This document shows positions 1,040 through 21,926 of a stretch of 64,000 nucleotides of DNA, piece after piece. Numbering within the stretch: position 1 is the stretch's first letter; each line of letters begins with the position of its first letter. The DNA is from Candidatus Hydrogenedentota bacterium (GTDB lineage Bacteria > Hydrogenedentota > Hydrogenedentia > Hydrogenedentales > CAITNO01). The position numbers were made by a program, and so were the translations under genes. Below the pieces are notes generated by a model. It saw only the letters and a list, made by a program, of their open reading frames with translations, searched no databases and was not told the origin of the DNA. The stretch lies in NCBI GenBank assembly GCA_903893795.1, contig CAITNO010000102.1, forward strand, positions 1-64,000, in the 5' to 3' direction.

Positions 1040-2029
1040 ATGCTCGAACCATATCGGACAGGTTACAGGCCTTCGGAGGATTTCAAGAAACGGCTTTCTG
1101 AGGAGTATGACCGTGACTTGACACCCAAAGAGCCAACCACTCCCACCACAGTCATCAATGGGACAGCCGTAGCAAGTCTGGTCTTGGGGATAGCCTCTCT
1201 GATTACCCCAATGTTCATCTTGTTGTGGATTCTTCTTTCAACCACAGGACCCATACTTATTGCGGATTATTCCCCTGCTGCATTGATTGTCTCTGGTGTA
1301 TTGCTGTCCGCACCGGCAGTGTTCATCGGACACCTTTCGATGGAGCGAATTAACCGTGGATTGAAGAAACAGTCTGGAGCCGGGCTCACCATTGGGGGCC
1401 TGAGCACAGGTTACGTTGGGTTGATTCTTTGCATACTCTTGGGGTGCTATTTTGCCTTTCTTCTACCGGCCCAAATGAGGGACTTTGAACGGGGAGTAAA
1501 GGAAGCAGGCGACAAGATAGAACGCGATGCCGATGAGTCGCTAAACAGACTCACGGGGGATATTGAGCGACACGCAAAGAACATACAACCTCCATCCTTC
1601 AATCTGCCAAAGCCATCCCAAAAGCCACTCAAGGTGCCCTCAGTCTTGGTGAACCCTTCTCAACCAGCTCTTCAGCCGGTCCAGCAACCTGTCAGGCAAG
1701 ATTTATCACAGGCCATAAGGGAAAATGAAACGCGAGTTGTAGAAGCACTCAAAGAAATTGTTGCTGCGGAAGAAAGTACGCTTGCCGCCGATGGACGCTA
1801 CGCGGGAAGCCTACAGTCCCTTGCACCCTTGAAGGGCAAAATCACGGGGAATGCCTTCTCTGGTTACAGATTCAGCCTCATGGGTTCATCCAACAAGTTT
1901 CGAGTCAACGCCGCGCCGGAAATTCCTGGAGAAACAGGGCAACGCTACTTCTACGTGGATGAAACGGGCGTCATCCGGAGTAACCCTTCAAGTAAGGCGA
2001 GCAGCTTGGACGGACCGTTAGGGAACTGA
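1040..2029 (+). CDS. DUF4190-like membrane protein with pilin-like C-terminal segment
   Basis: ORF 923..2029, likely start ATG 1040; hydrophobic GTAVASLVLGIASL...GLKKQSGAGLTIGGLSTGYVGLI (DUF4190-like) and RYFYVDETGVIRSNPSS tail. Confidence 0.6.
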   Translation: MLEPYRTGYRPSEDFKKRLSEEYDRDLTPKEPTTPTTVINGTAVASLVLGIASLITPMFILLWILLSTTGPILIADYSPAALIVSGVLLSAPAVFIGHLSMERINRGLKKQSGAGLTIGGLSTGYVGLILCILLGCYFAFLLPAQMRDFERGVKEAGDKIERDADESLNRLTGDIERHAKNIQPPSFNLPKPSQKPLKVPSVLVNPSQPALQPVQQPVRQDLSQAIRENETRVVEALKEIVAAEESTLAADGRYAGSLQSLAPLKGKITGNAFSGYRFSLMGSSNKFRVNAAPEIPGETGQRYFYVDETGVIRSNPSSKASSLDGPLGN

Positions 2030-2788
2030 GGCACATTTCTCCTCGGGCCTTTCGAATTACCTCCTTAATCCAGCACCTGTTCATGTCCACTCAGACAAGT
2101 TACCCGTTGCCAACGGACCTTTCCTGATACACCCTGCTAATTGCCATTTATTGTCAGGAAATGAACGTCCGGCCCGTTCTGGCTCTGAGTTTTGAACGAG
2201 TCAAAATTCGCGACCACAGCTAACCCCCCTCCTTTCAATCTCTTCTATCGCCCTCCATCCTATCCCACCTTTCCACCCAATCAGTCCCTATCCTTTCCGG
2301 TCCATATCTTCACCGCCAATCCAGGTCCAGGTCCATGGGACCAACACCTCCTACCAAGCACTGTCTCTGCCGACACAATAGAAGTTGTTGGCCTGTATAG
2401 CCTCACGGAAAACGCGCGCGGCCATGCACTTGTTTTGCCGTCGTCGAGCAGCAGAAAGTGGTTTTTGTTCTTCGTTTCGTTCAGAGCCCGCTAGTAGTCG
2501 AATAATCTGATGACTCGGGTGTTCGCAGTTTGGTCGCCCTCAAAAAGGCCGACTTTCCAGACAGATATCCGAGTCTGTACCAATGTGACCGCCAAATATT
2601 TTTACAGAAATTCTTTTTTGCCTCAGGATGGCTTTGCTCTTTCACGTTCACCGGACCATTCATGCTTGGAACATACCCGACACTCCCGCCACACACCCGC
2701 CTGAACCATCTCTATATATATAAAACTTCAGCATCAGAAACTTCTTGCCACAGAAACCGAAAAATCAACCAGAAAGGAGCGAAAAATC

Positions 2789-3109
2789 GTGGGTGACTTC
2801 AGTGACATGCGTGACGTAGACCGTTTTATGCGTTGTGAAAACGGCCGCAAACGGCTTGCTGAAATCCAAGCTGCTTTTGTCGGCAAGACCATCGCGAAAG
2901 TCGATTTCACAAACGACGTGGACAGCGTCTTGGTGACCATGTCCTTCGATTCTGGCGAGAGCCTGGAGCTTTTCCTGCCTGAATTGATGCTGGATGCTCT
3001 GAGGGAAACATTCCAGGCTGACATTCAAGAGGAATATTGGCGTGATTACCCGGAACGCAGACCAAACCAAGAGAAAGGAACCGAAAACGATGGAGAAGAT
3101 GAGTCCTGA
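2789..3109 (+). CDS. hypothetical small protein, first gene of small-ORF array
   Basis: GTG start at 2789 preceded by AGAAAGGAG. Confidence 0.6.
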   Translation: MGDFSDMRDVDRFMRCENGRKRLAEIQAAFVGKTIAKVDFTNDVDSVLVTMSFDSGESLELFLPELMLDALRETFQADIQEEYWRDYPERRPNQEKGTENDGEDES

Positions 3110-3521
3110 GCAAGTGGCCGCGGTCCGTCGCCGTGTCCAAATGGCCTTTGGCGAACTTCGGAAAGTGGGCTTTCTCACGAAGTCCAACTTCAGTTGCTGC
3201 ATGAACTGTGCCGTCGCCGAACTGGGCGAAATAGCGGAGAAACGGCGTCGCAACCGTGCCGTGTATTGGCACATACAGGATGAGACGCACTTCCGTAAGG
3301 GAGGCTCGTTGTACATCCGCTTCTGTTATCTGCCGCCCAAGGGAATTGAAGGCGATACCACACGGGTGGAAACCGAAATCGGCGAACAGGTGGCGGCAGC
3401 ATTGCGGAAAGCCGGACTGGAAGTGGATTGGAACGGCAACCCGCACGTCACCATCCAAATTGAAGGTTTAACCAGCCAAGCCACTCCAGAAAAGGCAGGT
3501 CAACATGACGGAACCGCGTGA
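3090..3521 (+). CDS. DUF6891-like protein
   Basis: ATG 3090; FSCCMNCAVAELGEIAEKRR...LYIRFCYLPP...LRKAGLEVDWNGNPHVTIQIEG pattern. Confidence 0.6.
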   Translation: MEKMSPEQVAAVRRRVQMAFGELRKVGFLTKSNFSCCMNCAVAELGEIAEKRRRNRAVYWHIQDETHFRKGGSLYIRFCYLPPKGIEGDTTRVETEIGEQVAAALRKAGLEVDWNGNPHVTIQIEGLTSQATPEKAGQHDGTA

Positions 3522-3792
3522 TTGGAGAGAGGAGGCGAATGAAAAGGCCCGTACAGCGGCCAGAGTCTTGAGCGACTGGGTAAACGACATGGGTCACAAG
3601 AATGAGGTGTTCGTCCAAGCTGTCATGCAGGAACACCGGACCCTTCAACAGCAGATGTTCGAGGTCATGCTTGCCTGCATCGCCGAATGGGCAAAGGCCG
3701 AGCAATACGACGCAAGAAATGCGTTTACCATCTTGAAATGCCGGGAAATCATGTCGCTATTTCCCGGCGGTACAAAAGTGCCACTCATCTGA
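3505..3792 (+). CDS. hypothetical protein
   Basis: 95 aa ORF in the same-strand array, overlaps preceding stop. Confidence 0.55.
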   Translation: MTEPRDWREEANEKARTAARVLSDWVNDMGHKNEVFVQAVMQEHRTLQQQMFEVMLACIAEWAKAEQYDARNAFTILKCREIMSLFPGGTKVPLI

Positions 3793-3819
3793 ACACCAAC
3801 TCAACCGAAAGGGAAGACT

Positions 3820-4116
3820 ATGGCTGAAATACGCTTTGACCTTGGCCCGATTGTCGCCACGCCCGGCGCACTGGAGGCACTGCAACGCAATGGCATGACG
3901 GGTCTGGAACTGTTGGCTCGGCACTGTCGCGGCGATTGGGGTGAATTGGATGATGAGGACAAGCAAGCCAATGCCGATGCCCTTCAAACCGGCGCTCGAA
4001 TCATGTCCGTGTACACATTGCCCGATGGCACCAAGATATGGGTAATAACTGACGCGGAAATTTCCGATGACCATGCACGTCAAGCCACAACGTTCCTCCT
4101 GCCGGATGACTACTGA
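3820..4116 (+). CDS. plasmid-related small protein (FDLGPIVATPGALEAL family)
   Basis: 98 aa; FDLGPIVATPGALEALQRNG...LLARHCRGDWGELD...TKIWVITD..TTFLLPDDY, a recurrent plasmid/ICE protein family. Confidence 0.75.
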   Translation: MAEIRFDLGPIVATPGALEALQRNGMTGLELLARHCRGDWGELDDEDKQANADALQTGARIMSVYTLPDGTKIWVITDAEISDDHARQATTFLLPDDY

Positions 4117-7763: not shown

Positions 7764-7810
7764 GATGAAAGACCCGATAGGGATAGCCATGCCTTGTCGG
7801 GTCTTTCATC
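7764..7810. terminator. 14-bp stem hairpin between small-ORF array and ardC-like gene (terminator or regulatory)
   Basis: GATGAAAGACCCGA - 19 nt - TCGGGTCTTTCATC; only a short T run follows. Confidence 0.5.
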
Positions 7811-7829
7811 ATCTAAGGAGGTGATTCAA

Positions 7830-8660
7830 ATGAAGATGATTGGCCGGGCAACAGACATTGCCCAAAGAATCGTGGATGCGTTCAAGGAGCCGGGAAACCT
7901 GCCAAAAGCGTTGGCGCCCATTTTCATCCGGCGTAATGATGACGTGCCCTGCCGAAAATGGTCTTGGCATAACCAACTGCTCGTTGCCCTGTCCGGCACT
8001 TCCGATGCCCGTGGTATCCGCCAATGGAACACGGTTGGCCGCAAACTGAAGAAAGGCTGCAAGGGCATCTGGATTTTGGCCCCGTGCATCAAGACCATCA
8101 GGGAGAAAGACGATAAGGGAGAGGAGCAAAAGAAAAACCTCGTATATGGTTTCAAGGGCATTCCCGTGTTTGCCGTGGAGGATACGGAGGGCAATCCAGT
8201 TCCCGGCAATGAGCGATATGACGAGTGGGTCCGGAATCTGCCCTTGGTGAAGGTGGCTGAGGGTTGGGGCATCCATGTTGGTACGTATTCCGGCGAGGAT
8301 AGGGATGCACTCGGGTATTTCCAGTTCGGTACGGGCCGCAAGGCAATCATGCTGGGCACGGAGAACCTGAGTACCTGGGCACACGAACTTGTCCATGCTG
8401 CTGACCATCACCTGACCAAACTCATTGATGACCGGAATCTGCTGGAAATCATCGCTGAATTGGGTTCGGCCATCCTGCTTGAGGCAATCGGCCACTCATA
8501 CGAGGCTGATTTGGGTGGTGCCTACGCCTATATCCACCACTACGCGACAGCCGCCGGCAAACCTCCTGTACGGGCCTGTATTGACGTGCTGGACCGAGCA
8601 TGTAGTTGTGTGGCGCTGATTTTGGACATGGCAGAGAAGGCGAAAGAGGACACCCCCTGA
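7830..8660 (+). CDS. ArdC-like antirestriction protein (ssDNA-binding domain + zincin metallopeptidase)
   Basis: ATG 7830 after AAGGAGG; WSWHNQLLVALSGTSDARGIRQWNTVGRKLKKGCKGIWILAP and HELVHAADH (HExxH). Confidence 0.85.
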   Translation: MKMIGRATDIAQRIVDAFKEPGNLPKALAPIFIRRNDDVPCRKWSWHNQLLVALSGTSDARGIRQWNTVGRKLKKGCKGIWILAPCIKTIREKDDKGEEQKKNLVYGFKGIPVFAVEDTEGNPVPGNERYDEWVRNLPLVKVAEGWGIHVGTYSGEDRDALGYFQFGTGRKAIMLGTENLSTWAHELVHAADHHLTKLIDDRNLLEIIAELGSAILLEAIGHSYEADLGGAYAYIHHYATAAGKPPVRACIDVLDRACSCVALILDMAEKAKEDTP

Positions 8661-8666
8661 ACCTCC

Positions 8667-8682
8667 GTGCCACCGGTGGCAC
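8667..8682. repeat. 16-bp palindrome GTGCCACCGGTGGCAC
   Basis: Read directly; identical at 21942-21957. Confidence 0.9.
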
Positions 8683-8706
8683 CGAACATCCAAATCTTAC
8701 TTTTCA

Positions 8707-8733
8707 CACTGTTTTGTACACCACGGAACAGTG
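8707..8733. promoter_or_regulatory. inverted repeat CACTGTT-N13-AACAGTG upstream of serine recombinase
   Basis: CACTGTTTTGTACACCACGGAACAGTG, 65 bp before recombinase start. Confidence 0.45.
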
Positions 8734-8797
8734 ATGTACAGGTTTTCTGCAAATAGGCGTTCAACTTACAGCTTTTTTCGAGCTGGAAAGGAGGAGA

Positions 8798-9514
8798 ATG
8801 ACGAAAAAGGCGGTTTGCTATTTCCGCGTCAGCACCCAAGAGCAAGCTCTCCACGGGGTGAGCCTTAATGCCCAGGAGGAACGGATTGCTGCCTATTGCA
8901 TGATGCAGGGGTTGGAAGTCGTCCAAACGTTCCGGGAAGAGGGTGTATCCGCCAGCAAGGCACTGAACACCCGGCCCAAGGGTATGGAGATGCTGGAACT
9001 GCTGCGGAAGAAGAAGGCCGGGCACATCGTAGCCCTGAAACTGGACCGGCTTTTCCGCAACGCCGAAGACGCTCTACGGCAAACATCGGCTTGGGATACA
9101 GCCGGGGTAACGCTGCATCTGGTGGATATGGGTGGTCAGTCGCTCTGTACCTCCTCAGCCGTTGGCCGGATGATGCTCACGATGATGGCCGCGTTCGCTG
9201 AATTCGAGCGCAACCTGATTTCGGAACGGACTGCGGCCGCATTGCAGCATAAGAAGGTCCATCTTCAACCCTATGCACAACTGCCTTTTGGCTTTGACCG
9301 TCAGGGCGACTTGCTCGTTGTGAACGTTTACGAGTTGGGCATGGTGAGGCAGATGGAGGACTGGCGTGCAACCGGTTGCACGTTACGGGCCATTGCCAGA
9401 TGGTTAAACGAGATGAAGGTTCCGGCCAAGAACAAGGGCCGGTGGTTTGCCTCGACTGTCCGGCAGATTCTAGCAAACCCCATGTATGGGCTAATTGAGG
9501 AGGCTGACCAATGA
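8798..9514 (+). CDS. serine recombinase (resolvase N-terminal domain + short Recombinase domain)
   Basis: CYFRVSTQEQA...GVSLNAQEERIAAYC...LKLDRLFRN...FAEFERNLISERT; RRxxxAIARWLNE.. Confidence 0.85.
   Translation: MTKKAVCYFRVSTQEQALHGVSLNAQEERIAAYCMMQGLEVVQTFREEGVSASKALNTRPKGMEMLELLRKKKAGHIVALKLDRLFRNAEDALRQTSAWDTAGVTLHLVDMGGQSLCTSSAVGRMMLTMMAAFAEFERNLISERTAAALQHKKVHLQPYAQLPFGFDRQGDLLVVNVYELGMVRQMEDWRATGCTLRAIARWLNEMKVPAKNKGRWFASTVRQILANPMYGLIEEADQ
9366..9381. repeat. 16-bp palindrome GTGCAACCGGTTGCAC (inside recombinase CDS)
   Basis: Read directly; identical at 18780-18795. Confidence 0.85.
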
Positions 9515-10608: not shown

Positions 10609-11391
10609 CTAGGCATGATGACCCCGGATGAGTTCTGCAATTTCCTTTGCAATTTCCTCGACGGTATGGGTGGCTGTACTTCTTGCCAACTTGTCCGCAA
10701 GTGACGGGCTGTACTCAATCACTTCTTGTTTGGAAATGTTGTGCCAAATGGGAAGTAGGACCTGTTCACCCGTTACTGCCTTGGTAATAATCCCATCAAG
10801 CTCATAGTTCGTCCAGCCCTTGGAAATAAACGCATGCGAAAGCACGACCAAACCTGCTCTGCTGTTGGCAAGCCCTTGGTCAATCTTCCTACGCAGGCTA
10901 TCACCAATCCGAAGCTCAAATTCATCGTACCACACCCGCAACCTTTCATTCTGTAAGGCGATTGCCAAAGGCCGTACTATCGATTCCTTGTCTTCGGAGG
11001 CATGAGAAATGAAGACATCGTAATTCCGAAAACGTGGATTAGACGTATCAGGTGGAGAGTCAGGCTGAACCAAGCTTGGCACAGTGGATAACGGTGCTTC
11101 TCTAATTGTTGGTAAGGGGGCAGGCAGTATTCGCGCGGAAGAGCGTACTGTTCCTCGCAATCCCATCATGTCCACTGTAACGTGCCAATGTCCCGAATGA
11201 GGAATTTGAAGGCGTACGGGCGACTGTTTTGCAAGACCACCAATATACCTATGGCGATGTCCATTCCTGTAATTGTTAAAATCACTGTTATCCATGAGAC
11301 GGACGTTTGCAGCACTTCCAGAAAGTGTAATTTCGACCACTTCACCCCCGCCGCGTTGGCCTAAGTCATGATGTACGAACTGCACTGCCAT
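10609..11391 (-). CDS. DUF1883-TIR domain protein
   Basis: MAVQFVHHDLGQRGGGEVVEITLSGSAANVRLMDNSDFNNYRNGHRHRYIGGLAKQSPVRLQIPHSGHWHVTVDM (DUF1883) + YDVFISHASEDK...VWYDEFELRIGDSLRRKIDQGLANS (TIR). Confidence 0.85.
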   Translation of the reverse strand: MAVQFVHHDLGQRGGGEVVEITLSGSAANVRLMDNSDFNNYRNGHRHRYIGGLAKQSPVRLQIPHSGHWHVTVDMMGLRGTVRSSARILPAPLPTIREAPLSTVPSLVQPDSPPDTSNPRFRNYDVFISHASEDKESIVRPLAIALQNERLRVWYDEFELRIGDSLRRKIDQGLANSRAGLVVLSHAFISKGWTNYELDGIITKAVTGEQVLLPIWHNISKQEVIEYSPSLADKLARSTATHTVEEIAKEIAELIRGHHA

Positions 11392-11395
11392 ACAG

Positions 11396-12151
11396 TTAAC
11401 TCCCTTCCCCTCGTTTTGCTTTGAAGGTCGCCACAAAAAACGTGGCCATCGCGCCGGCCAGGTTGACCGCTAGTTCAGCGTGTCTTGGAGCGGGTCTGAT
11501 GGGACGTTTGCCTTGGCCGTGGGCATCGCCCAAACGATTGCGGAGCGAGCCAAGTCCCTCTACAACAGCATGACATCCCCCGAGTATCTGCCTGAACACC
11601 TGTTCGGTATGTTGACTTGGGGCAATATTCAGAGAGGTAGCGGCCTTTGCATACAGCTTCGGCAAGTCATCGTCAGCGTATGCAATGCCGGATTCGTCCA
11701 AGATGCACTTGCAGACGCTTTCCAGAAGGGTTCTCGCTGCTGTAATAGCTCCTTCGGGGTCATCAACACGCCTGTCAAGGCCTTTTGTCCAAAGCTCACG
11801 GATATGTTCGGCGTCGAGGCCGTCTAGCGTTCTTGAGACTATCTCGGCCGCGGGGCCATTTTCTCCAGTCTCAAGAAATGTCAGGACCGTGTCAAATTCT
11901 TCTATGAGAAATGCCCGTCTTTCGGCATAGGTCCCGAACTTCGGCTTGATGAACTGCCAGAATTCATCCGGAGTACGATGTGTTCGTAGCCAAGAGGGTA
12001 GTTTGTGTGCCAACTGCGGTTTGTGGAGCAGTTCCTCACGAAGTCTCTCGTATAATCCAGTCTGATAGCGTCCGCCGGTTGCTCGGGCCATTGCGATATT
12101 CTTGAGACACGTGACTTTCTCCTGGTCAGTCTGTAAGAACTCATCCATCAC
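11396..12151 (-). CDS. abortive-infection (Abi_C) family protein
   Basis: AARTLLESVCKCILDE...DDLPKLYAKAATSLNIAP...ILGGCHAVVEGLGSLRNRLGDAHGQGK...RHAELAVNLAGAMATFF. Confidence 0.8.
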   Translation of the reverse strand: MMDEFLQTDQEKVTCLKNIAMARATGGRYQTGLYERLREELLHKPQLAHKLPSWLRTHRTPDEFWQFIKPKFGTYAERRAFLIEEFDTVLTFLETGENGPAAEIVSRTLDGLDAEHIRELWTKGLDRRVDDPEGAITAARTLLESVCKCILDESGIAYADDDLPKLYAKAATSLNIAPSQHTEQVFRQILGGCHAVVEGLGSLRNRLGDAHGQGKRPIRPAPRHAELAVNLAGAMATFFVATFKAKRGEGS

Positions 12152-13293
12152 AGCTCCCCCTTGAAAGCCTTGTCGAGAATGGACGGGAGCAGGGCATGAA
12201 GGTCAGGTATCGTCGTTTCGTTAATGCTGTCTACCTCCATAAATCCGCGAAGAGCAGTTATGGCTTTTTGTTGATCCTGAAGAGACGGGAATGGGATTAC
12301 CAGTTCCAAGAATTGCTCCGGGCGGGTCCTTTCTCTACGTCCGCCCATACCCCTTGTGAGCCCCTTTAGGCGGTTAAGGAACCATGGTGACTTGAATAGA
12401 TGTGCGAGATACTCAGGAATTGCCTTGCCTTTAACGCAACTGAATGTTCTGTATTCTGGCGACACAAAGAGACCATCGAACTCGGCACCAACTATGTCAA
12501 TCGCGCCTTCCCATCCTTTTACTTGACTGAGAACAACTGCGCCCTTGTAAAGCCGATTGAATGACTTGTAAGCAGTATCTATACCACAAATAGCATCCTT
12601 GGCAAAAAGCCCTCCGCCAAAGCCCCGCAAGCCAGCTTGTGGATAGACGTTTTCGGGACGGACTACTTCTCTCTCCTCTTTCAGTTGGAGAAAGCTGGAG
12701 AGGCGAGACTCATCACCCTTAGCAAGATAATCGTTAAGAGCCGCAGGCACAGCTCCCCGCTCTTCTCGAAGTTCGACTTTCAAACATTCGGCTTCTTTGA
12801 CATTCGCCGCAACCATGTCTATCCGCTTGACAATTCGTTTCTGTTCAAAGAGCGGCGGCAGAGGAATGCAATAATCCATTACATCCTTCGGGCGAATCGC
12901 GGCATAGTTAGTGGAGCCTTGAGCGGTCACCTGTTCAAGGAATGCGTCGGTACGGATGAAGTAATCCAAAAAACGCCTGTCGAGTTTGTTCTCGTCAATC
13001 GTGAATAGAAAGTAGTGGCTACTTACAATCGCGCCATCAAGTTCTTCAGGCACGATGCCAAACCCGCCGACTTTGGCGTCAATTTCTGCAACAAGGAATT
13101 CACCATGCTGACATACTTGCTGGCTTTTCGTCTTGATTTCCGTTCCGTGCACGGTATCTCGGAGAAGAATTCCTCGCGCGTGCAATTGGACACGACACCG
13201 TTTGTATCTTCTGGCGTCGTCAATCTTGATGAGCTCCTTACGTTGCCTTATGGCACCGCCAAGAGGCGTGAACAACCATTTGCTAATTGTCAC
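12148..13293 (-). CDS. hsdS: type I restriction-modification specificity subunit
   Basis: IPLPPLFEQKRIVKRID and two TRD-like halves; 4-bp overlap with hsdM. Confidence 0.85.
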   Translation of the reverse strand: MTISKWLFTPLGGAIRQRKELIKIDDARRYKRCRVQLHARGILLRDTVHGTEIKTKSQQVCQHGEFLVAEIDAKVGGFGIVPEELDGAIVSSHYFLFTIDENKLDRRFLDYFIRTDAFLEQVTAQGSTNYAAIRPKDVMDYCIPLPPLFEQKRIVKRIDMVAANVKEAECLKVELREERGAVPAALNDYLAKGDESRLSSFLQLKEEREVVRPENVYPQAGLRGFGGGLFAKDAICGIDTAYKSFNRLYKGAVVLSQVKGWEGAIDIVGAEFDGLFVSPEYRTFSCVKGKAIPEYLAHLFKSPWFLNRLKGLTRGMGGRRERTRPEQFLELVIPFPSLQDQQKAITALRGFMEVDSINETTIPDLHALLPSILDKAFKGEL

Positions 13294-14837
13294 GACTTGG
13301 TCCTCAACAAGCCCTCAATTTCTTTCACGAGTTCAATGATTCGGGCCTCTTTCTGTAGGATGCTTGTCACCAATTGCTCCGGCGGTAGGTGCTCAAGGTC
13401 GGTCAGGGCATTGGGATTCTTGATGTCGAGGTTATAGCCACCTTCAATGACCGTTTTTGCCGAAACCTTCCAAGCCCGTTTGTTTTCCTTTCTTTTCTTC
13501 CACCAAATGATGCAATCGGCGAAATCATCAAACTGAATAGGATTCGTCTTGGAATAGTTTTTGCGTCCTTCTGGCAGCGGGTGCTCGTAATACCAGATAT
13601 CCTTGGTCGGGCCGGAACGGTCAAAGAAGAGCAGATTTGTGGGGATGCCCGTGTACGGAGCAAAGACGCCATTTGGTAATCGAATCACAGTGTGCAGGTT
13701 AAATGAGGTCAGCAATTCTTCCTTAATACGAGCACAGACACCGTCGCCAAAGAGCGTACCATTAGGTACGACGACTCCGGCCCTGCCACCCTTGTCGGAC
13801 CCACGACCAGGCCGTTTCAGCTTCCGCATAATGAGCTGTAGGAATAATAGGGTTGTTTCGGACGCCTGTTTGTCTTCTGGGAAATTGCCTAAGATACCCC
13901 GCTCTTCCTCGCCGCCAAACGGGGGGTTTGTGAGGATAACATCCACCCGGTCTTTGTCGCCGATTTCGTTGAGCGGATGCCGTAGGCTGTTCAACGGGTC
14001 TATCCGGGGGGATTCCAACCCATGCAGGAGTAGATTCATCTGGCAGAGGAGATACGGCAGGGACTTGGCTTCTCCGCCAATTATTGAGGCTGTTTGCAGA
14101 ATTCGATGGTGTTCAACCGTCTTGCATTGGGCGGCGAGGTGCAAATACGTCTCAACGAGGAATCCACCCGTGCCACATGCCGGGTCCATGACGGTTTCGC
14201 CCAACTTGGGGTCCGTTACCTTTACCATGAACTGTACTACCGGACGGGGCGTGTAGAACTCGCCAGAATCCCCGGCGGCATCACGCATTTCCTTCAGCAT
14301 GGATTCGTATAGATGGCCAAGAGTGTGAATCTCTTCGGATGACGTGAAGTGGATACCGCCAACCTTGTTGATAACGTCCCGAAGCAGGTAGCCGTTTATC
14401 ATCCGGTTAATGGTGCCGCGAAACACAGTGGCGATAACATCCCGCCGGTCGCCGCCATTGTCACTCTGAAGACCCCGTAAGTAGGCAAACAGTCCGGGGC
14501 CTTTTGTTCCGTCCGGGCGTCTGGCTTCGTCGTTGTTGATGAAGGCAATCAATTCGTCACCGGTTATGCCATCTTCTCTTGCGGCCCAATCACGCCACCG
14601 ATACGGCGGCTCGATTGCGGGCCTGAACTTTTTCCCGGCCAATACAGCTTTTTGCTCCCGAATTTGTTCCATATCGTCCAGAAACTTAAGGAACATCACC
14701 CAGGTCAACATCGGCAAACGGTCCAAGTCGCCATTCAGACCCTTGTCCTTGCGCATGATATCGCGGGCGGACTTGACGAGGCCACCGAGTTGTTGAGCAG
14801 TAGTGACACCGACACGTTGTGCGCGATTAATCGCCAT
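13290..14837 (-). CDS. hsdM: type I restriction-modification methyltransferase subunit
   Basis: GEFYTPRPVVQFMVKVTDPKLGETVMDPACGTGGFLVETY; VDVILTNPPFGGEE. Confidence 0.95.
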   Translation of the reverse strand: MAINRAQRVGVTTAQQLGGLVKSARDIMRKDKGLNGDLDRLPMLTWVMFLKFLDDMEQIREQKAVLAGKKFRPAIEPPYRWRDWAAREDGITGDELIAFINNDEARRPDGTKGPGLFAYLRGLQSDNGGDRRDVIATVFRGTINRMINGYLLRDVINKVGGIHFTSSEEIHTLGHLYESMLKEMRDAAGDSGEFYTPRPVVQFMVKVTDPKLGETVMDPACGTGGFLVETYLHLAAQCKTVEHHRILQTASIIGGEAKSLPYLLCQMNLLLHGLESPRIDPLNSLRHPLNEIGDKDRVDVILTNPPFGGEEERGILGNFPEDKQASETTLLFLQLIMRKLKRPGRGSDKGGRAGVVVPNGTLFGDGVCARIKEELLTSFNLHTVIRLPNGVFAPYTGIPTNLLFFDRSGPTKDIWYYEHPLPEGRKNYSKTNPIQFDDFADCIIWWKKRKENKRAWKVSAKTVIEGGYNLDIKNPNALTDLEHLPPEQLVTSILQKEARIIELVKEIEGLLRTKS

Positions 14838-15285
14838 GCGGTACTGGTTCCTCTGTTTTAGCGTCACCTGAAATACTAGGTGGTGCTTTGTCACTCCCAT
14901 GACCCGTATGTGCGCTAAGGGGTTCATCGCAATGGTGAATGATTTCACCCGTCTTTGGGTCGGTAACAGTTTCCTGATAGTGGTCATTTTCGTTATCTAC
15001 ATTACGAATCTTGTGCATCCACTCCTTAGTTTTAATACAGAAGTCATCTCCCGCAATGAATTCGCGAGGATATCGTTTCTTCTTGGATGTCGGCCTTATT
15101 TTTCTTGGTGGTCCAACCTTACCCTCAACTCGGTCATGAAACGTCATGCCACTTTCAACCGTAAGCCCGATTGTTCGCCCTTCAGTAGAACCACAGTTGG
15201 GGCAAGGTGAATTCTCCAATTGAGGATGCTTTTCAACCCATTGTGCCCCACATTGCCAACAAGTTTCAGTTCGGTCCTTTTCCAT
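14827..15285 (-). CDS. Zn-ribbon protein inside type I RM operon
   Basis: ETCWQCGAQW...CPNCGSTEGRTIGL; TDPKTGEIIHHCDEPLSAHTGHGS. Confidence 0.7.
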   Translation of the reverse strand: MEKDRTETCWQCGAQWVEKHPQLENSPCPNCGSTEGRTIGLTVESGMTFHDRVEGKVGPPRKIRPTSKKKRYPREFIAGDDFCIKTKEWMHKIRNVDNENDHYQETVTDPKTGEIIHHCDEPLSAHTGHGSDKAPPSISGDAKTEEPVPHGD

Positions 15286-15296
15286 TATGACTTTCC

Positions 15297-17684
15297 TTAA
15301 GCCGCATATAATAATGACTGTAGTACGCAGACAGCGTCTCTAAGTTTCTCTGCCCCGCCGAACTTCTCGGCAATTTCCATCACATTCCCGTGTACAGAGA
15401 TGGGCGGCACCTGAAGCACTTCGGGCAACTGAAGTTGTTCTGGACCATGAGCGGCGTATTTCTCAAGGAGCTCCTCCAATATGGCCCGTGCTTCCGGCCC
15501 GTATTGGTCAAAGAAGTCCTTTCGGTTCTTCTTCAGCCGTTCGGCCCTTTCCCGGCGTGTTCGCAGCGGAACATTGAAAGCCAGATGGCAAATCATATCG
15601 AGAGGGTCCGCATCAGGTAATTTGGCAACTTCTTGAAGATGCCCGAAGTCTACCCCTCGTTCTGCCAGCATGTCTCTTATGGCCGCCCGTTGTTCGGGGT
15701 TGGCCCATTCCTCTTGAAGAGTATCCGAATCCGAATACAGCGTTCGTACCTGTTCGGCGGCATAGTCCGTGTACTTCACGACACGAAGCTGCTTGCCGGT
15801 ATTTGGGTCCAGTTCATAGACAACTTCTGCGGCAATCTCAACAAGTCCGTCGTCGAAATAGTATTTTCGTCGTGGTTGACCGAAATCGTCACCCAGAATA
15901 GTCTCGGGATAATCCGGTGACTCATCGGATTCCTGAGATGTGTCTTCCGCAACAATCTCGTAGGTGTCGGGAATGGTTTCGCCGTCTTCGTTGATGTCTT
16001 CCTCTGTCAGGAGGGCTGGCGTTCCGTCGAAATCCGGGTCTGCAAAATGGGCCGTTGCGGAACCGGTGTAATCGAGAATACTAAACCAAAGCTTGCCGTA
16101 GTCTTCACGGATACGGGTTCCACGCCCAATAATTTGCTTGAACTCCGTCATCGACCCAACGACACGGGCCAGCACGATATTCTTGCACGTTTGAACGTCC
16201 ACGCCGGTTGTCAGAAGTTGGCTTGTTGTCACGATGACGGGTGTAACCGTCTCAAGTTCTTTGAATCTGTCCAAATAGCCGCGGCCAATTGCCTTTTCAT
16301 CGGATGTGATGCGGCAGACATAATCCGGGTACTGCTGCATAAGGTCGGCATTCAAATTGGAAAGGGCTTCTCGCATTGTGTCGGCATGTTCCTGGTCCAC
16401 GCAGAACACGATGGTCTTGCCGAAGCGGTCTGTTCTCTTGAGAAAGTCGGTAAGATGTTTGGCAATAGCTTGAGTCCTGGCCCGTAACGCAACAGTCCGC
16501 TCAAAGTCCTTCGTATGGTATTCATCATCGGGAATGTCACGTCCATAACGGTCCGTGGTGCCGACATTGGGCCTCCATCCGGCAGCATCCCACTCGGAAA
16601 TCACCCGATGCACACGATAGGGGGCAAGAAAGCCGTCATCAATCCCTTGCTTCAGGCTGTATTGATAAATCGGATTGCCAAAGTAGGCATAAGTGTCAAC
16701 ATTGTCATCACGTTTGGGCGTGGCTGTCATGCCCAGTTGATAGGCCGAATCAAAGAAGTCCAAGATGGCCCGCCAGTTACCTTCGTCGTTGGCACTCCCA
16801 CGGTGGCACTCATCTACAATCACAAGGTCAAAGAAATCGCGACCAAACTCTTTATAGAGTCCGGGCCGCCGTTCGTCCTGGGCAATGGCTTGGTAGATGG
16901 CAAAGTACATCTCCCGGCTCTTGACGATTTCGCCGTTTTCAATCCGGTACCGGGCATCGCCGAAAGGAACGAACATCTTGTCCTTGGGGTCATCAATCAA
17001 GAAATTCCTGTCAGCAAGATACAGGATTCGGGGGCGTCTGTAATCACCGGTTCGATTCCAGCGGGATTCCCATAGCTTCCAACAGACTTGGAAGGCTACG
17101 AAGGTCTTTCCAGTGCCAGTGGCCATTGTCAGGAGCACCCGTTTCTTGCCTTGCAGGACAGCTTGAATGCTCCGGTTAATGGCAATTTCCTGATAGAAAC
17201 GAGGCTTCTTGTCTGACAGTCCGAAGCAGCGGGTGAGCAGACGAGAGGCAACACCCTCATCCGTGATTCCTTGGGCGGCCCGGTAGCGAGTCCAAAGCTC
17301 GTCAGGGGTGGGGAACTCCTTCATACGGGATTCTTGGCCCGTGGCAAAATCGAACTCGACGATTTCCTCGCCGTTGGTTGAGTAGGCGAACTGAAGGCCA
17401 AGCATCAAGGCGTATTCCTTGGCTTGCTGCAAACCGTCCGTGGGCTGTTTGTCAATGGACTTGGCCTCGACAACGGCTATTGTGAAATCCGCCGTATAGC
17501 GGAGGAGATAATCGGGCCGCTTGGGTTGACGCCGTTGGGCCTTATCGCCGACAAGGATGACGCGGCCGTCCGTCACGGCCCGTTGTTCAGCAAGAGAGTG
17601 CGGCTCCACGTCCCAACCTGCGTTCAGCAGTTTAGGCGTAACGAACTTCCTGCATGTATCAGCTTCCGTCAGCATGGCTCCCAT
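15297..17684 (-). CDS. hsdR: type I restriction endonuclease subunit R
   Basis: LLTMATGTGKTFVAFQ, VIVDECHRGS, GMTATPKRDD; start chosen downstream of TTGATG-N17-TATGAT promoter-like sequence (ORF extends to 17876). Confidence 0.9.
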   Translation of the reverse strand: MGAMLTEADTCRKFVTPKLLNAGWDVEPHSLAEQRAVTDGRVILVGDKAQRRQPKRPDYLLRYTADFTIAVVEAKSIDKQPTDGLQQAKEYALMLGLQFAYSTNGEEIVEFDFATGQESRMKEFPTPDELWTRYRAAQGITDEGVASRLLTRCFGLSDKKPRFYQEIAINRSIQAVLQGKKRVLLTMATGTGKTFVAFQVCWKLWESRWNRTGDYRRPRILYLADRNFLIDDPKDKMFVPFGDARYRIENGEIVKSREMYFAIYQAIAQDERRPGLYKEFGRDFFDLVIVDECHRGSANDEGNWRAILDFFDSAYQLGMTATPKRDDNVDTYAYFGNPIYQYSLKQGIDDGFLAPYRVHRVISEWDAAGWRPNVGTTDRYGRDIPDDEYHTKDFERTVALRARTQAIAKHLTDFLKRTDRFGKTIVFCVDQEHADTMREALSNLNADLMQQYPDYVCRITSDEKAIGRGYLDRFKELETVTPVIVTTSQLLTTGVDVQTCKNIVLARVVGSMTEFKQIIGRGTRIREDYGKLWFSILDYTGSATAHFADPDFDGTPALLTEEDINEDGETIPDTYEIVAEDTSQESDESPDYPETILGDDFGQPRRKYYFDDGLVEIAAEVVYELDPNTGKQLRVVKYTDYAAEQVRTLYSDSDTLQEEWANPEQRAAIRDMLAERGVDFGHLQEVAKLPDADPLDMICHLAFNVPLRTRRERAERLKKNRKDFFDQYGPEARAILEELLEKYAAHGPEQLQLPEVLQVPPISVHGNVMEIAEKFGGAEKLRDAVCVLQSLLYAA

Positions 17685-17867
17685 CACGACGTGTTGAGTG
17701 GCGTTCCCCCATAAATTAAGGAACACCTCGCCCAGAACAGGCTTCATCATACCCAAAGTCCGTCTGTGCATCAAAAGGACAAGGGGGTGCTTGAAAAGAG
17801 GGTGATTCGGGTGTATTCTCTGGACACGGGTGGTCGGTGACCGGCAAATCACACGGGAGAGATAATC

Positions 17868-18710
17868 ATGGACCATACTTACGAAGAAATCAGAGATGTT
17901 TCTCTAGATATTCTTGCTGGACGTGAACGCGCATCGCATGAGCCAACACAGTATCAAAGTCTGCTCCTGGGAGTGCTGCAAGTCCTTGATAAACGCAGTT
18001 GCACACAAGAACCCCATTCATTGCCTTGGGGTGGACAGACAAACCGCTCAACACTCGACACTGAAATATTCCTTGAAGTCTTTTGGGACCTCTTTCGCCA
18101 AGGCATAATTACCCTTGGCGTAAATGATTCAAACAGAGAGTTCCCCTGGTTTCGAGTATCCTCATTTGGGAAGAGGATACTCGATTCTCACGACATTTAC
18201 TTCTTCCATGACGTTTCGACGTATGAGAAAGTAATCCTTCAGAACGTACCATCTATGAACCCTGTCACTTTGCTCTATTTAAAGGAATCTATGCAAGCGT
18301 TTCATGCCGGCTGCATCTTGTCGTGCTCGGTAATGTTGGGCGTTGCGGCTGAACACACGTTCTTGCAGTTGATGGAAACAGTCAACACCAATCCCGAAAA
18401 GGCTCTGCTCTTCAAAGAGATTGAAAAAGAGCGAACAATCCTTCGGAAGACGACGAAGTTCAGGAACATAATCCTTCAGCACATCAAAGATTTACCGCCG
18501 GTAGTCGCCGAGGACCTTGATTTGAATGTTTCAGGAATCCAATCAATTATCCGCAACTACCGAAATGAAGCTGGACATCCCACAGGCAAGATTATCGAGC
18601 GTGAACAGGCTTATGTCTTGCTCAACCTTTTCATCCCATACTGCAAGAAAATGTACCAGCTTAAGGAATTCTACGCGAGCACTGTATGCGGTTCTACACC
18701 CGCAGCATAA
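17868..18710 (+). CDS. hypothetical protein with HEPN-like RxxxxH motif
   Basis: 280 aa; C-terminal IIRNYRNEAGHPTGKIIEREQAYVLLNLFIPY. Confidence 0.6.
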   Translation: MDHTYEEIRDVSLDILAGRERASHEPTQYQSLLLGVLQVLDKRSCTQEPHSLPWGGQTNRSTLDTEIFLEVFWDLFRQGIITLGVNDSNREFPWFRVSSFGKRILDSHDIYFFHDVSTYEKVILQNVPSMNPVTLLYLKESMQAFHAGCILSCSVMLGVAAEHTFLQLMETVNTNPEKALLFKEIEKERTILRKTTKFRNIILQHIKDLPPVVAEDLDLNVSGIQSIIRNYRNEAGHPTGKIIEREQAYVLLNLFIPYCKKMYQLKEFYASTVCGSTPAA

Positions 18711-18989: not shown

Positions 18990-19463
18990 ATGACCAGACC
19001 AAAATACAAGTCTACTGACGACCTGCTTGACCTGCTTTCACATGTGGACCTGCAAAGCAGCGTGGCCGTCTACACGCAGGTCGAAAATTCCATCCAGTAT
19101 GCCATCTCCTCCGGCCGCCTGAAGCCGGGCGACCAACTTCCGGCTGTTCGCGAACTTTCTGAGCGCCTGAAGGTCAACACAAACACCGTTTCCAAATCGT
19201 ACCGCGACCTAGTTGTCATGGGCCTGCTGTACACCCGCCGCGGCATGGGTGTCTTCGTCAGCAAGGACATCGAAGAGAAGTGCAAGGATGACTGCCGACG
19301 CCGGGTCCTCATCCGCCTCAATGAGGTGGTCTGCGAAAGCCGCGCCGCTGGTTTTAACGACAAGGAAGTCGTTGAGATTGTTGAAAAGGTGCTCAAGTTG
19401 AAATCGAACCCGTACGGCACTATGGCGCCCGCGCTGGCTGCGTACCTGCGTAAACGCAAATAG
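18990..19463 (+). CDS. GntR-family regulator (YtrA-like)
   Basis: VYTQVENSIQYAISSGRLKPGDQLPAVRELSERLKVNTNTVSKSYRDLVVMGLLYTRRGMGVFV. Confidence 0.9.
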   Translation: MTRPKYKSTDDLLDLLSHVDLQSSVAVYTQVENSIQYAISSGRLKPGDQLPAVRELSERLKVNTNTVSKSYRDLVVMGLLYTRRGMGVFVSKDIEEKCKDDCRRRVLIRLNEVVCESRAAGFNDKEVVEIVEKVLKLKSNPYGTMAPALAAYLRKRK

Positions 19464-19559
19464 CCTGTCCCCGAAATTCTAGCACTTGTGGATGGGCTTT
19501 GTTCTGTCTGTGAAGGTTCCAAGGCCCTGGACCCAGAAGACTTGGAAGGATAACAAAGC

Positions 19560-20693
19560 ATGAACTACTGGTTAGACCTCTTTACGGGGACCACATGGGA
19601 TGAGTTCAAGAAAAATGGAGCCAAAACCAGCGGCTTCAGTTCCAGAATGCGGAAGCAGGTGGCGGCCATTCAGAAGGGTGACATCTTGATGTGCTATATG
19701 ACGGGGGTCATGCGCTGGGTTGGGGCTCTTGAAGTTCTCGGCACCAGTAGTGACAATTCCGCAATCTGGTCCCTTCGCGAATTCCCTGAACGTCTTAGCG
19801 TGAAACCCGTGGTCATGCTTAGCCCTGAAACAGGTGTGCCCATGAGCGAGCTTGAGGGCCATGTTGCCTTCTATGAAGGACCAACTGACCGAGGAGGTTT
19901 CAAGGGCTTCCTGCGGGGTAGTCCCAAGCTTTTCAAGAGTCCGGCTGACGGTGAATACATAATGCGATTAATGCGGGAGGCAGAGAGAACGCCTGTCGTC
20001 CGGCCAGTTGACCCTGCAAAACTTGCCCGCAAGCCGCTCTTCAAGGTGAGTGCAAAGAAAGGCAAAAGACTCGTTGAGACTCTTGTGAGCGTGCCAGACT
20101 CTGAAGAGAAGAATGGCCAGGTAAGTGAGCCAGAAATCACTGAGTCATCCGCTACACCCACGGAACATACCAGAATCGAGCACCTTCTTCTCACTCTCGG
20201 CAAAGAAATGGGGTTTGACATATGGGTCGCAAAGAACGATAGAAGCAAGGCGTACAACGGAACATTGCTTGGTAGCTTGCCAGGCATGGTGGACGACCTT
20301 CCCACACAGTTCAATGAAGCAACGAACCGGACAATCGAGCTTATAGACGTTCTGTGGCTCAAGGGAAACTCCATTGTCGCGGCTTTTGAGGTGGAATGGA
20401 CGACCGCAATCTACTCAGGCTTATTGCGCATGAGCGACCTTCTTGCGTTGCAGCCTAACCTCAACATCAAGCTCTATATCGTCGCGCCGGACGACCGCGC
20501 ATCGAAGGTACAACAGGAAATCCTCCGGCCAACTTTCACGCTCAGAGAAAGGCCGCTTGCAGAAATGTGCGGTTTTCTTTCCAGTTCTGTCCTTACAGAG
20601 AAGATTGAAGGCGTCCGGAGGCTTGGACTTGCTGCTTCGCTGAAGTCCGATTTTCTGGAACAACTGGCCGAATACTTCGCGGCTGACGAGTAG
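19560..20693 (+). CDS. EVE-domain protein with C-terminal PD-(D/E)xK-like nuclease region
   Basis: N-term MNYWLDLFTGTTWDEF...GDILMCYMTGVMRWVGALEV; C-term ELIDVLWLKGNSIVAAFEVEWTTAIYSGLLRMSDLLALQPNLNIKLYIVAPDD. Confidence 0.75.
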   Translation: MNYWLDLFTGTTWDEFKKNGAKTSGFSSRMRKQVAAIQKGDILMCYMTGVMRWVGALEVLGTSSDNSAIWSLREFPERLSVKPVVMLSPETGVPMSELEGHVAFYEGPTDRGGFKGFLRGSPKLFKSPADGEYIMRLMREAERTPVVRPVDPAKLARKPLFKVSAKKGKRLVETLVSVPDSEEKNGQVSEPEITESSATPTEHTRIEHLLLTLGKEMGFDIWVAKNDRSKAYNGTLLGSLPGMVDDLPTQFNEATNRTIELIDVLWLKGNSIVAAFEVEWTTAIYSGLLRMSDLLALQPNLNIKLYIVAPDDRASKVQQEILRPTFTLRERPLAEMCGFLSSSVLTEKIEGVRRLGLAASLKSDFLEQLAEYFAADE

Positions 20694-20759: not shown

Positions 20760-21926
20760 ATGAAATCAAAGGAAGAGATTGATATTACGGAAGTATGGAA
20801 ATGTGCTGTCAGGGATGTGTCGCCAGAGTGGTACAAGGCGGCTCGGTTAGCACAGGAAGGTGTCGAGGCCTTTTTCCCATACGTGTCGTCGTGCCAGTTG
20901 GCTAGCGCGATTCCGGACCACGTACCAATCCAATTGTATACGCGATTTGATGCTGAAGTATTTGCGTCGGGAGCATCGTCATTCTCTGTTGTGAAACGAC
21001 TCTTTGCACGTCCTGGATTGCGTCTTTTCGGACTCGCCGAACTTCATGCGAAGATTCTCCTCGTGGACCGACGGTTTGTATCCGTCGGAAGTCAAAATCT
21101 TACTGTGCGAGGCACCAAGAACCTTGAGGCAACGCTCTTCAGTGATGGTCTTCACAATGCAACAGAGGTCTATGAGAGTACGGCTAACTGGAAATCCAAA
21201 GCGTTCGAAGTCAATAGCGACATGTTGGCAGCAATGGAGGCTGCACTTCCATATCTCAGGAAACTCTACGCCGCCTTTCTGAAGGAAGCTCACAAGTGCA
21301 ATGAACAGGTTCAGTTCCACAGGGAGGAGGCCAGGAGACGGCGAGAAAAGATTGCAAAAGAGAAGGCGCGGGTGGAGCAGCTGCAGACGGAGGCGAGCAC
21401 CGCTTATGTCCTTAAAAGGCGGGAACTGCTACACGCGATTGATGACTTCTGCCCTGACGGTCGAGTGTCTGAGGAGTTTGCCAAGGAATTCATAGAGTAT
21501 TCAGCGTGGACTAAGAATTCCTGGGGGCACGGTCCTCGCCCAGCAGAAGGGGCTGCGAGAAATGTATTTCATGTGCCAGGTCTGGGATGGTGCTGGAACT
21601 GTGGAGCGAATATTAATAGGCACAAATTGGCGGTCAGTTTTGCAATACTTGAATGCAAGCGAATAATTGGTGACATTTGTGATGATTCCACCTACATAGA
21701 AACCCATCCCTATGGGGAAATACTAGAACGACTCAAGAATGCTGTATGGTCATGTGTGGCGGATAGCAATCATCAGTGGAATAAGGATTGGTATAGGTGT
21801 GAAGACAACTGCCTTATGTTTGGTTATCATAAAATAAATCTATGCGACTTCGTGCAAAGAATCCTGGAGTACTTACCAGTAAAAGAGGTTTATGAACGCT
21901 GGAAGTACTTGGTGTCGGTTATGTAA
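20760..21926 (+). CDS. phospholipase D-like domain protein (single HKD motif)
   Basis: LHAKILLVDRRFVSVGSQNLTVRGTKNLEA (HxKx4D..GSxN). Confidence 0.75.
   Translation: MKSKEEIDITEVWKCAVRDVSPEWYKAARLAQEGVEAFFPYVSSCQLASAIPDHVPIQLYTRFDAEVFASGASSFSVVKRLFARPGLRLFGLAELHAKILLVDRRFVSVGSQNLTVRGTKNLEATLFSDGLHNATEVYESTANWKSKAFEVNSDMLAAMEAALPYLRKLYAAFLKEAHKCNEQVQFHREEARRRREKIAKEKARVEQLQTEASTAYVLKRRELLHAIDDFCPDGRVSEEFAKEFIEYSAWTKNSWGHGPRPAEGAARNVFHVPGLGWCWNCGANINRHKLAVSFAILECKRIIGDICDDSTYIETHPYGEILERLKNAVWSCVADSNHQWNKDWYRCEDNCLMFGYHKINLCDFVQRILEYLPVKEVYERWKYLVSVM

Follow-up and report, generated by a model that had tools for sequence, protein, structure and literature searches.

A widespread EVE–nuclease fusion predicted to act as a stand-alone, modification-dependent restriction endonuclease

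The window, that is the whole stretch of 64,000 nucleotides analysed here, contains an intact open reading frame (ORF) with an ATG start and, just 5′ of it, a GGAAGGA-like ribosome-binding site (19544-19550). Its product is a fusion of an N-terminal EVE domain to a C-terminal nuclease domain (Table 1), and both terminal peptides cited by the original prediction are found in it. As a single sequence the protein returned no Pfam match and no PDB sequence match, whereas family profiles succeeded. The AlphaFold model of the whole protein has a mean pLDDT of 87, and its linker comprises a short beta hairpin (residues 161-176) followed by a disordered segment with pLDDT below 50 (residues 176-197).

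Table 1 Features of the EVE–nuclease gene in the window.
Feature	Coordinates	Strand	Basis
Whole EVE–nuclease gene, 377 aa	19560..20693	+	ORF; full-length relatives in many phyla
EVE domain, residues about 1-143	19560..19988	+	Family profile, Pfam, Foldseek, pLDDT mostly >90
Linker, residues 144-198	19989..20153	+	AlphaFold model
Nuclease domain, residues 199-377, PD-(D/E)XK-like topology	20154..20690	+	pLDDT 92, pTM 0.89
D263, predicted metal-binding aspartate	20346..20348	+	Invariant 50/50; 24/24 across architectures
E277-V278-E279, predicted ExE replacing (D/E)xK	20388..20396	+	Both glutamates invariant
D227, NDR motif	20238..20240	+	Invariant
R290, helix after ExE	20427..20429	+	R or K in every architecture
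E207 in window protein; Q in 48/50 members	20178..20180	+	Alignment

A GntR-family gene lies upstream (18990-19463; Pfam GntR, 2.7e-16), as had been claimed; however, no GntR-like gene adjoins the EVE–nuclease gene in the relatives fetched, so this neighbour looks accidental. Further upstream, on the minus strand, is an EcoAI-type type I restriction-modification system with its own HsdR and HsdM genes (12148-17876), placing a type I adenine methylase gene (13290-14987) a few kb from the EVE–nuclease gene; a 152-aa zinc-ribbon-like ORF (14827-15285) is found between hsdM and hsdR. The next gene downstream (20760-21926, plus strand, 388 aa) carries one PLD-type motif around residues 93-129 and is weakly DrmC-like, the likeness lying in its N-terminus. 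Other ORFs of the window, judged from sequence alone, resemble a TIR-domain protein (10609-11436, minus strand), an ArdC-type antirestriction protein (7794-8660, plus strand) and a serine recombinase (8798-9514, plus strand), the last two (7794-9514) suggesting a mobile island. The G+C content is 52% over 8.7-24.4 kb versus 58% over 28-64 kb, and the 8.7-24.4 kb stretch is consistent with an acquired island. Location of the EVE–nuclease gene in a defence-rich island is supported. Across 126 flanking genes from about 80 loci of relatives, we found no recurrent partner, no fixed methyltransferase and no conserved operon, as expected of a stand-alone type IV enzyme. Scattered defence genes flank the relatives, at few loci each: MmeI-like IIG, D12 methylases, GajA, AAA_21 and Mrr.

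An EVE domain of the PUA superfamily forms the N-terminal half, bearing out the EVE/PUA-like assignment originally made. A profile of 50 family members matched the EVE structures MJECL36 (2p5d, 7.8e-10) and PH1033 (1wmm, 8.8e-9) over residues 3-137, and 41 of the 50 members scanned matched Pfam EVE individually, the related DCD model also being matched by four; in the window protein an EVE-like NCBIfam model gave a weak match to residues 1-86. Foldseek searches with the reader placed PH1033 first (E 2.4e-8) and MJECL36 next, followed by a long series of YTH domains, while VcaM4I, THYN1 and 2eve were absent from its top 50 neighbours. YTH models, by contrast, were matched by none of the 50 members in the sequence profile scan. 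Residues W13, F16, G25, C45, R78, R119 and S121 of the reader are invariant or near-invariant, and T12 and E15 nearly so. In VcaM4I, T11 and E15 contact the Watson-Crick edge of the base that is read (PMC7897488); T12 and E15 of the present reader may correspond to this pair, a likeness between unaligned domains that is suggestive only.

For the nuclease half, the PADLOC model REase_II (PDLC03534) matches residues 202-326 of the window protein (5.2e-14) and was matched by all 50 relatives. The D...ExE pattern pointed out in the original prediction corresponds to D263, E277 and E279, and is not a chance pattern, being invariant in 50/50 full-length sequences and kept in 24/24 sequences covering eight architectures of this nuclease. 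The D and D/E metal ligands of a classical PD-(D/E)XK site are present as the invariant D263 and E277, whereas the motif lysine, two residues past the second acid, is a glutamate (E279) in every sequence; the conserved R or K at position 290, which is present in all architectures, may substitute for it. When the nuclease was modelled alone, its elements ran in the order helix-strand-(insert)-strand-strand-helix-strand, with the aspartate immediately preceding a strand and ExE closing the following one: in the model, this order and the placement of D263 and E277-x-E279 fit the PD-(D/E)XK core pattern. No Foldseek match of the nuclease fell under E 0.001, and its weak matches were enriched in PD-(D/E)XK enzymes (Cdn1, BsaWI, EcoT38I, Card1, Can2, BbvCI and FAAP24) and included, among viral models, restriction endonuclease, MmcB and Mrr-like proteins. 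Topology and residues agree with the proposed fold, with structural searches contributing an enrichment among weak matches, and the model makes a PD-(D/E)XK assignment of the C-terminal half probable. No Pfam or PADLOC match to an HNH nuclease was obtained for the window protein or the members scanned, and in the proteins tested the nuclease domain lies outside every Pfam and NCBIfam model.

When GTDB genomes were scanned with an alignment of three sequences, 176 related stretches were confirmed. The top 80 of these are mostly full length, with 39-67% identity, and among them the fusion spans at least 18 named bacterial and archaeal phyla. Mapping 18 phyla onto the family tree required 30 changes versus a minimum possible of 17, a distribution that suggests, without proving, horizontal transfer of the EVE–nuclease fusion between phyla. 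Of 68 genomes from the window's phylum, 4 match, one of them the window's own, and no relative was found in phage records or viral contigs.

The nuclease domain recurs with other N-termini on 174 plasmid records and in genomes sampled from other groups. The plasmid relatives carry an alpha-rich N-terminus of ~250 aa and adjoin copper-resistance genes in all seven loci opened (L005, L006, L007, L008, L009, L010 and L011, Enterococcus plasmids included). A helix-hairpin-helix or glycosylase-like label considered for this N-terminal half (GLGPAxANxLYF) was dropped because Pfam returned nothing and the PDB profile gave only chance, heptad-like matches to viral spike coiled coils. Elsewhere the nuclease is preceded by a second N-terminus of similar length (~250 aa; L104, L110, L112), one that resembles a PUA domain (L105, L124), one of about 130-150 aa (L113, L114), a winged-helix-looking one of about 85 aa (L115, L118, L125) or a divergent EVE domain (L126; hhalign to the EVE profile, probability 95%). 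Fusions to winged helices are known to read 6mA (PMC11037411). Type II restriction endonucleases (REases) proper also end in this domain, D...ExE included (profile E 5e-26 to 2e-24 or better), and directly adjoin a C5-cytosine methyltransferase at each of five loci (L102, L107 at 1078-3730, L108, L109 and L119 at 1498-4068), with Vsr in two; L102 is truncated and holds the REase N-terminus only. By association, then, the domain is a restriction nuclease.

When the eight architecture labels were mapped on the nuclease-domain tree, seven changes were required, the minimum possible, which suggests that each fusion arose about once in the sampled sequences, on a tree with many weakly supported deep forks. 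We see an even chance that this nuclease is an exchangeable cutting module that became joined, about once in each case, to at least seven N-termini, from type II REase to EVE and putative readers, with a lysine-free D...ExE throughout. If so, the shared module would link type II and type IV restriction directly in evolution. What is new here is a nuclease module, with no entry in Pfam or NCBIfam, that is common to type II REases and at least six other N-termini, and we regard it as the most interesting by-product of the analysis.

The fusion and the conservation of its residues are firm; nuclease activity, dependence on modified DNA and an anti-phage role are inferred. Our preferred reading, to which we assign a probability of about 0.72, is that the gene encodes a stand-alone modification-dependent (type IV) restriction endonuclease. 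The EVE domain would flip a modified base of invading DNA into its own pocket, and the flexible linker would let the PD-(D/E)XK-like domain cut close by with metal ions bound by D263, E277 and E279. Since one domain nicks one strand, the enzyme would probably work as a dimer or act on paired sites. The original prediction is partly supported: a reader is joined to a restriction-type nuclease, the architecture is conserved over many phyla, a dedicated methyltransferase is lacking and the gene lies in a defence-rich island. The modified-cytosine target that it proposed is not established: the reader fold is nearest to PH1033 and MJECL36 and then to YTH, and 23/50 carrier genomes have a C5 methyltransferase.

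The methylases of the carriers bear on which base would be read. PF00145 (C5-cytosine methyltransferase) was found in those 23/50 carriers versus 112/195 genomes in a draw from a single phylum (Fisher p 0.155), so that with 50 carriers and a one-phylum control no avoidance was detected, and an N6_Mtase-family gene is present in 46/50 carriers, 27 of them with strong matches; these counts favour neither blanket 5mC nor blanket 6mA reading. That the reader recognises 5mC in any context has a precedent in VcaM4I, which reads 5mC/5hmC (PMC7897488), and would suit the window's own genome (88% complete), in which no C5 methyltransferase gene was found, yet with no avoidance detectable among carriers we consider it unlikely. 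An enzyme of the same type with a YTH-like reader of N6-methyladenine seems to us distinctly unlikely, even though the reader's structural neighbours beyond PH1033 and MJECL36 are almost all YTH domains, YTH-like domains hardly separable from EVE are fused to PD(D/E)XK nucleases (Bell et al., PMC7641849), and, according to that paper, the McrB-fused YTH domain of Thermococcus gammatolerans reads 6mA in DNA. Sequence searches return EVE and never YTH, the likeness between the two folds is general, and unrestricted 6mA reading would be self-toxic given the adenine methylases of the window and of the carriers. A base foreign to the host, such as a hypermodified phage base, or else one methylated within a narrow sequence context, would fit best as the target of the type IV enzyme.

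Two further explanations depart from type IV restriction altogether. The protein might be an ordinary type II enzyme, with its methyltransferase elsewhere and EVE as a plain DNA-binding domain, and its nuclease module does truly belong to type II REases at other loci; but those REases carry another N-terminus and sit directly beside a C5 methyltransferase at all five loci, whereas no methyltransferase is a constant neighbour of the EVE family and the window genome lacks a C5 enzyme, making this very improbable. Alternatively, the function might not be DNA restriction, the protein being an RNA-modification reader with an RNA-acting nuclease, or carrying a regulatory or inactive nuclease fold. 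EVE domains are also found in RNA-related proteins, modified RNA is a frequent ligand of both EVE and YTH domains, and ExE lacks the lysine. Against this, the three acidic residues are invariant in every architecture, type II REases included, and BamHI, which has D...ExE, is known to be active, so we give such a role only a slight chance.

EVE-PD(D/E)XK proteins were predicted as a class of type IV endonucleases by Bell, Wolf and Koonin in 2020 (PMC7641849), the only paper naming this class in the literature searched, and the window protein is most likely a member. It shares with that class an EVE reader, a probable PD-(D/E)XK-type nuclease and the predicted stand-alone restriction of modified DNA; the main text of that paper gives the class without naming the window's family, whose nuclease clade is set apart by D...ExE and by having no Pfam model. 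Such enzymes are predicted yet uncharacterised in the literature searched, in which we found no biochemically characterised member of this EVE–nuclease family. Being widespread, compact and self-contained, the family is well suited to testing what readers of this kind recognise.

VcaM4I, in which an EVE domain reading 5mC/5hmC lies within a nuclease fusion, and the EVE-HNH group (PMC7897488) likewise combine an N-terminal EVE with a C-terminal nuclease and no methyltransferase. Their nuclease is HNH, unlike that of the window protein, whose reader is nearer the PH1033/MJECL36 branch than VcaM4I, with S24/T24 aligned in the family to the pocket-region tryptophan of PH1033 (VWG motif). YTH-McrB of Thermococcus gammatolerans, cited in PMC7641849 and PMC7897488, also joins a PUA-superfamily reader to a restriction protein; it has a GTPase motor and a separate McrC nuclease and reads 6mA, unlike the window protein. 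The type II REases matching PDLC03534 (L107, L108, L109, L119 and the truncated L102) have the same nuclease domain with D...ExE, and differ from the window gene in their other N-terminal half and adjoining methyltransferase. Since the nuclease is common to both, a comparison of the two kinds of enzyme would show how a sequence-specific cutter turns modification-dependent.
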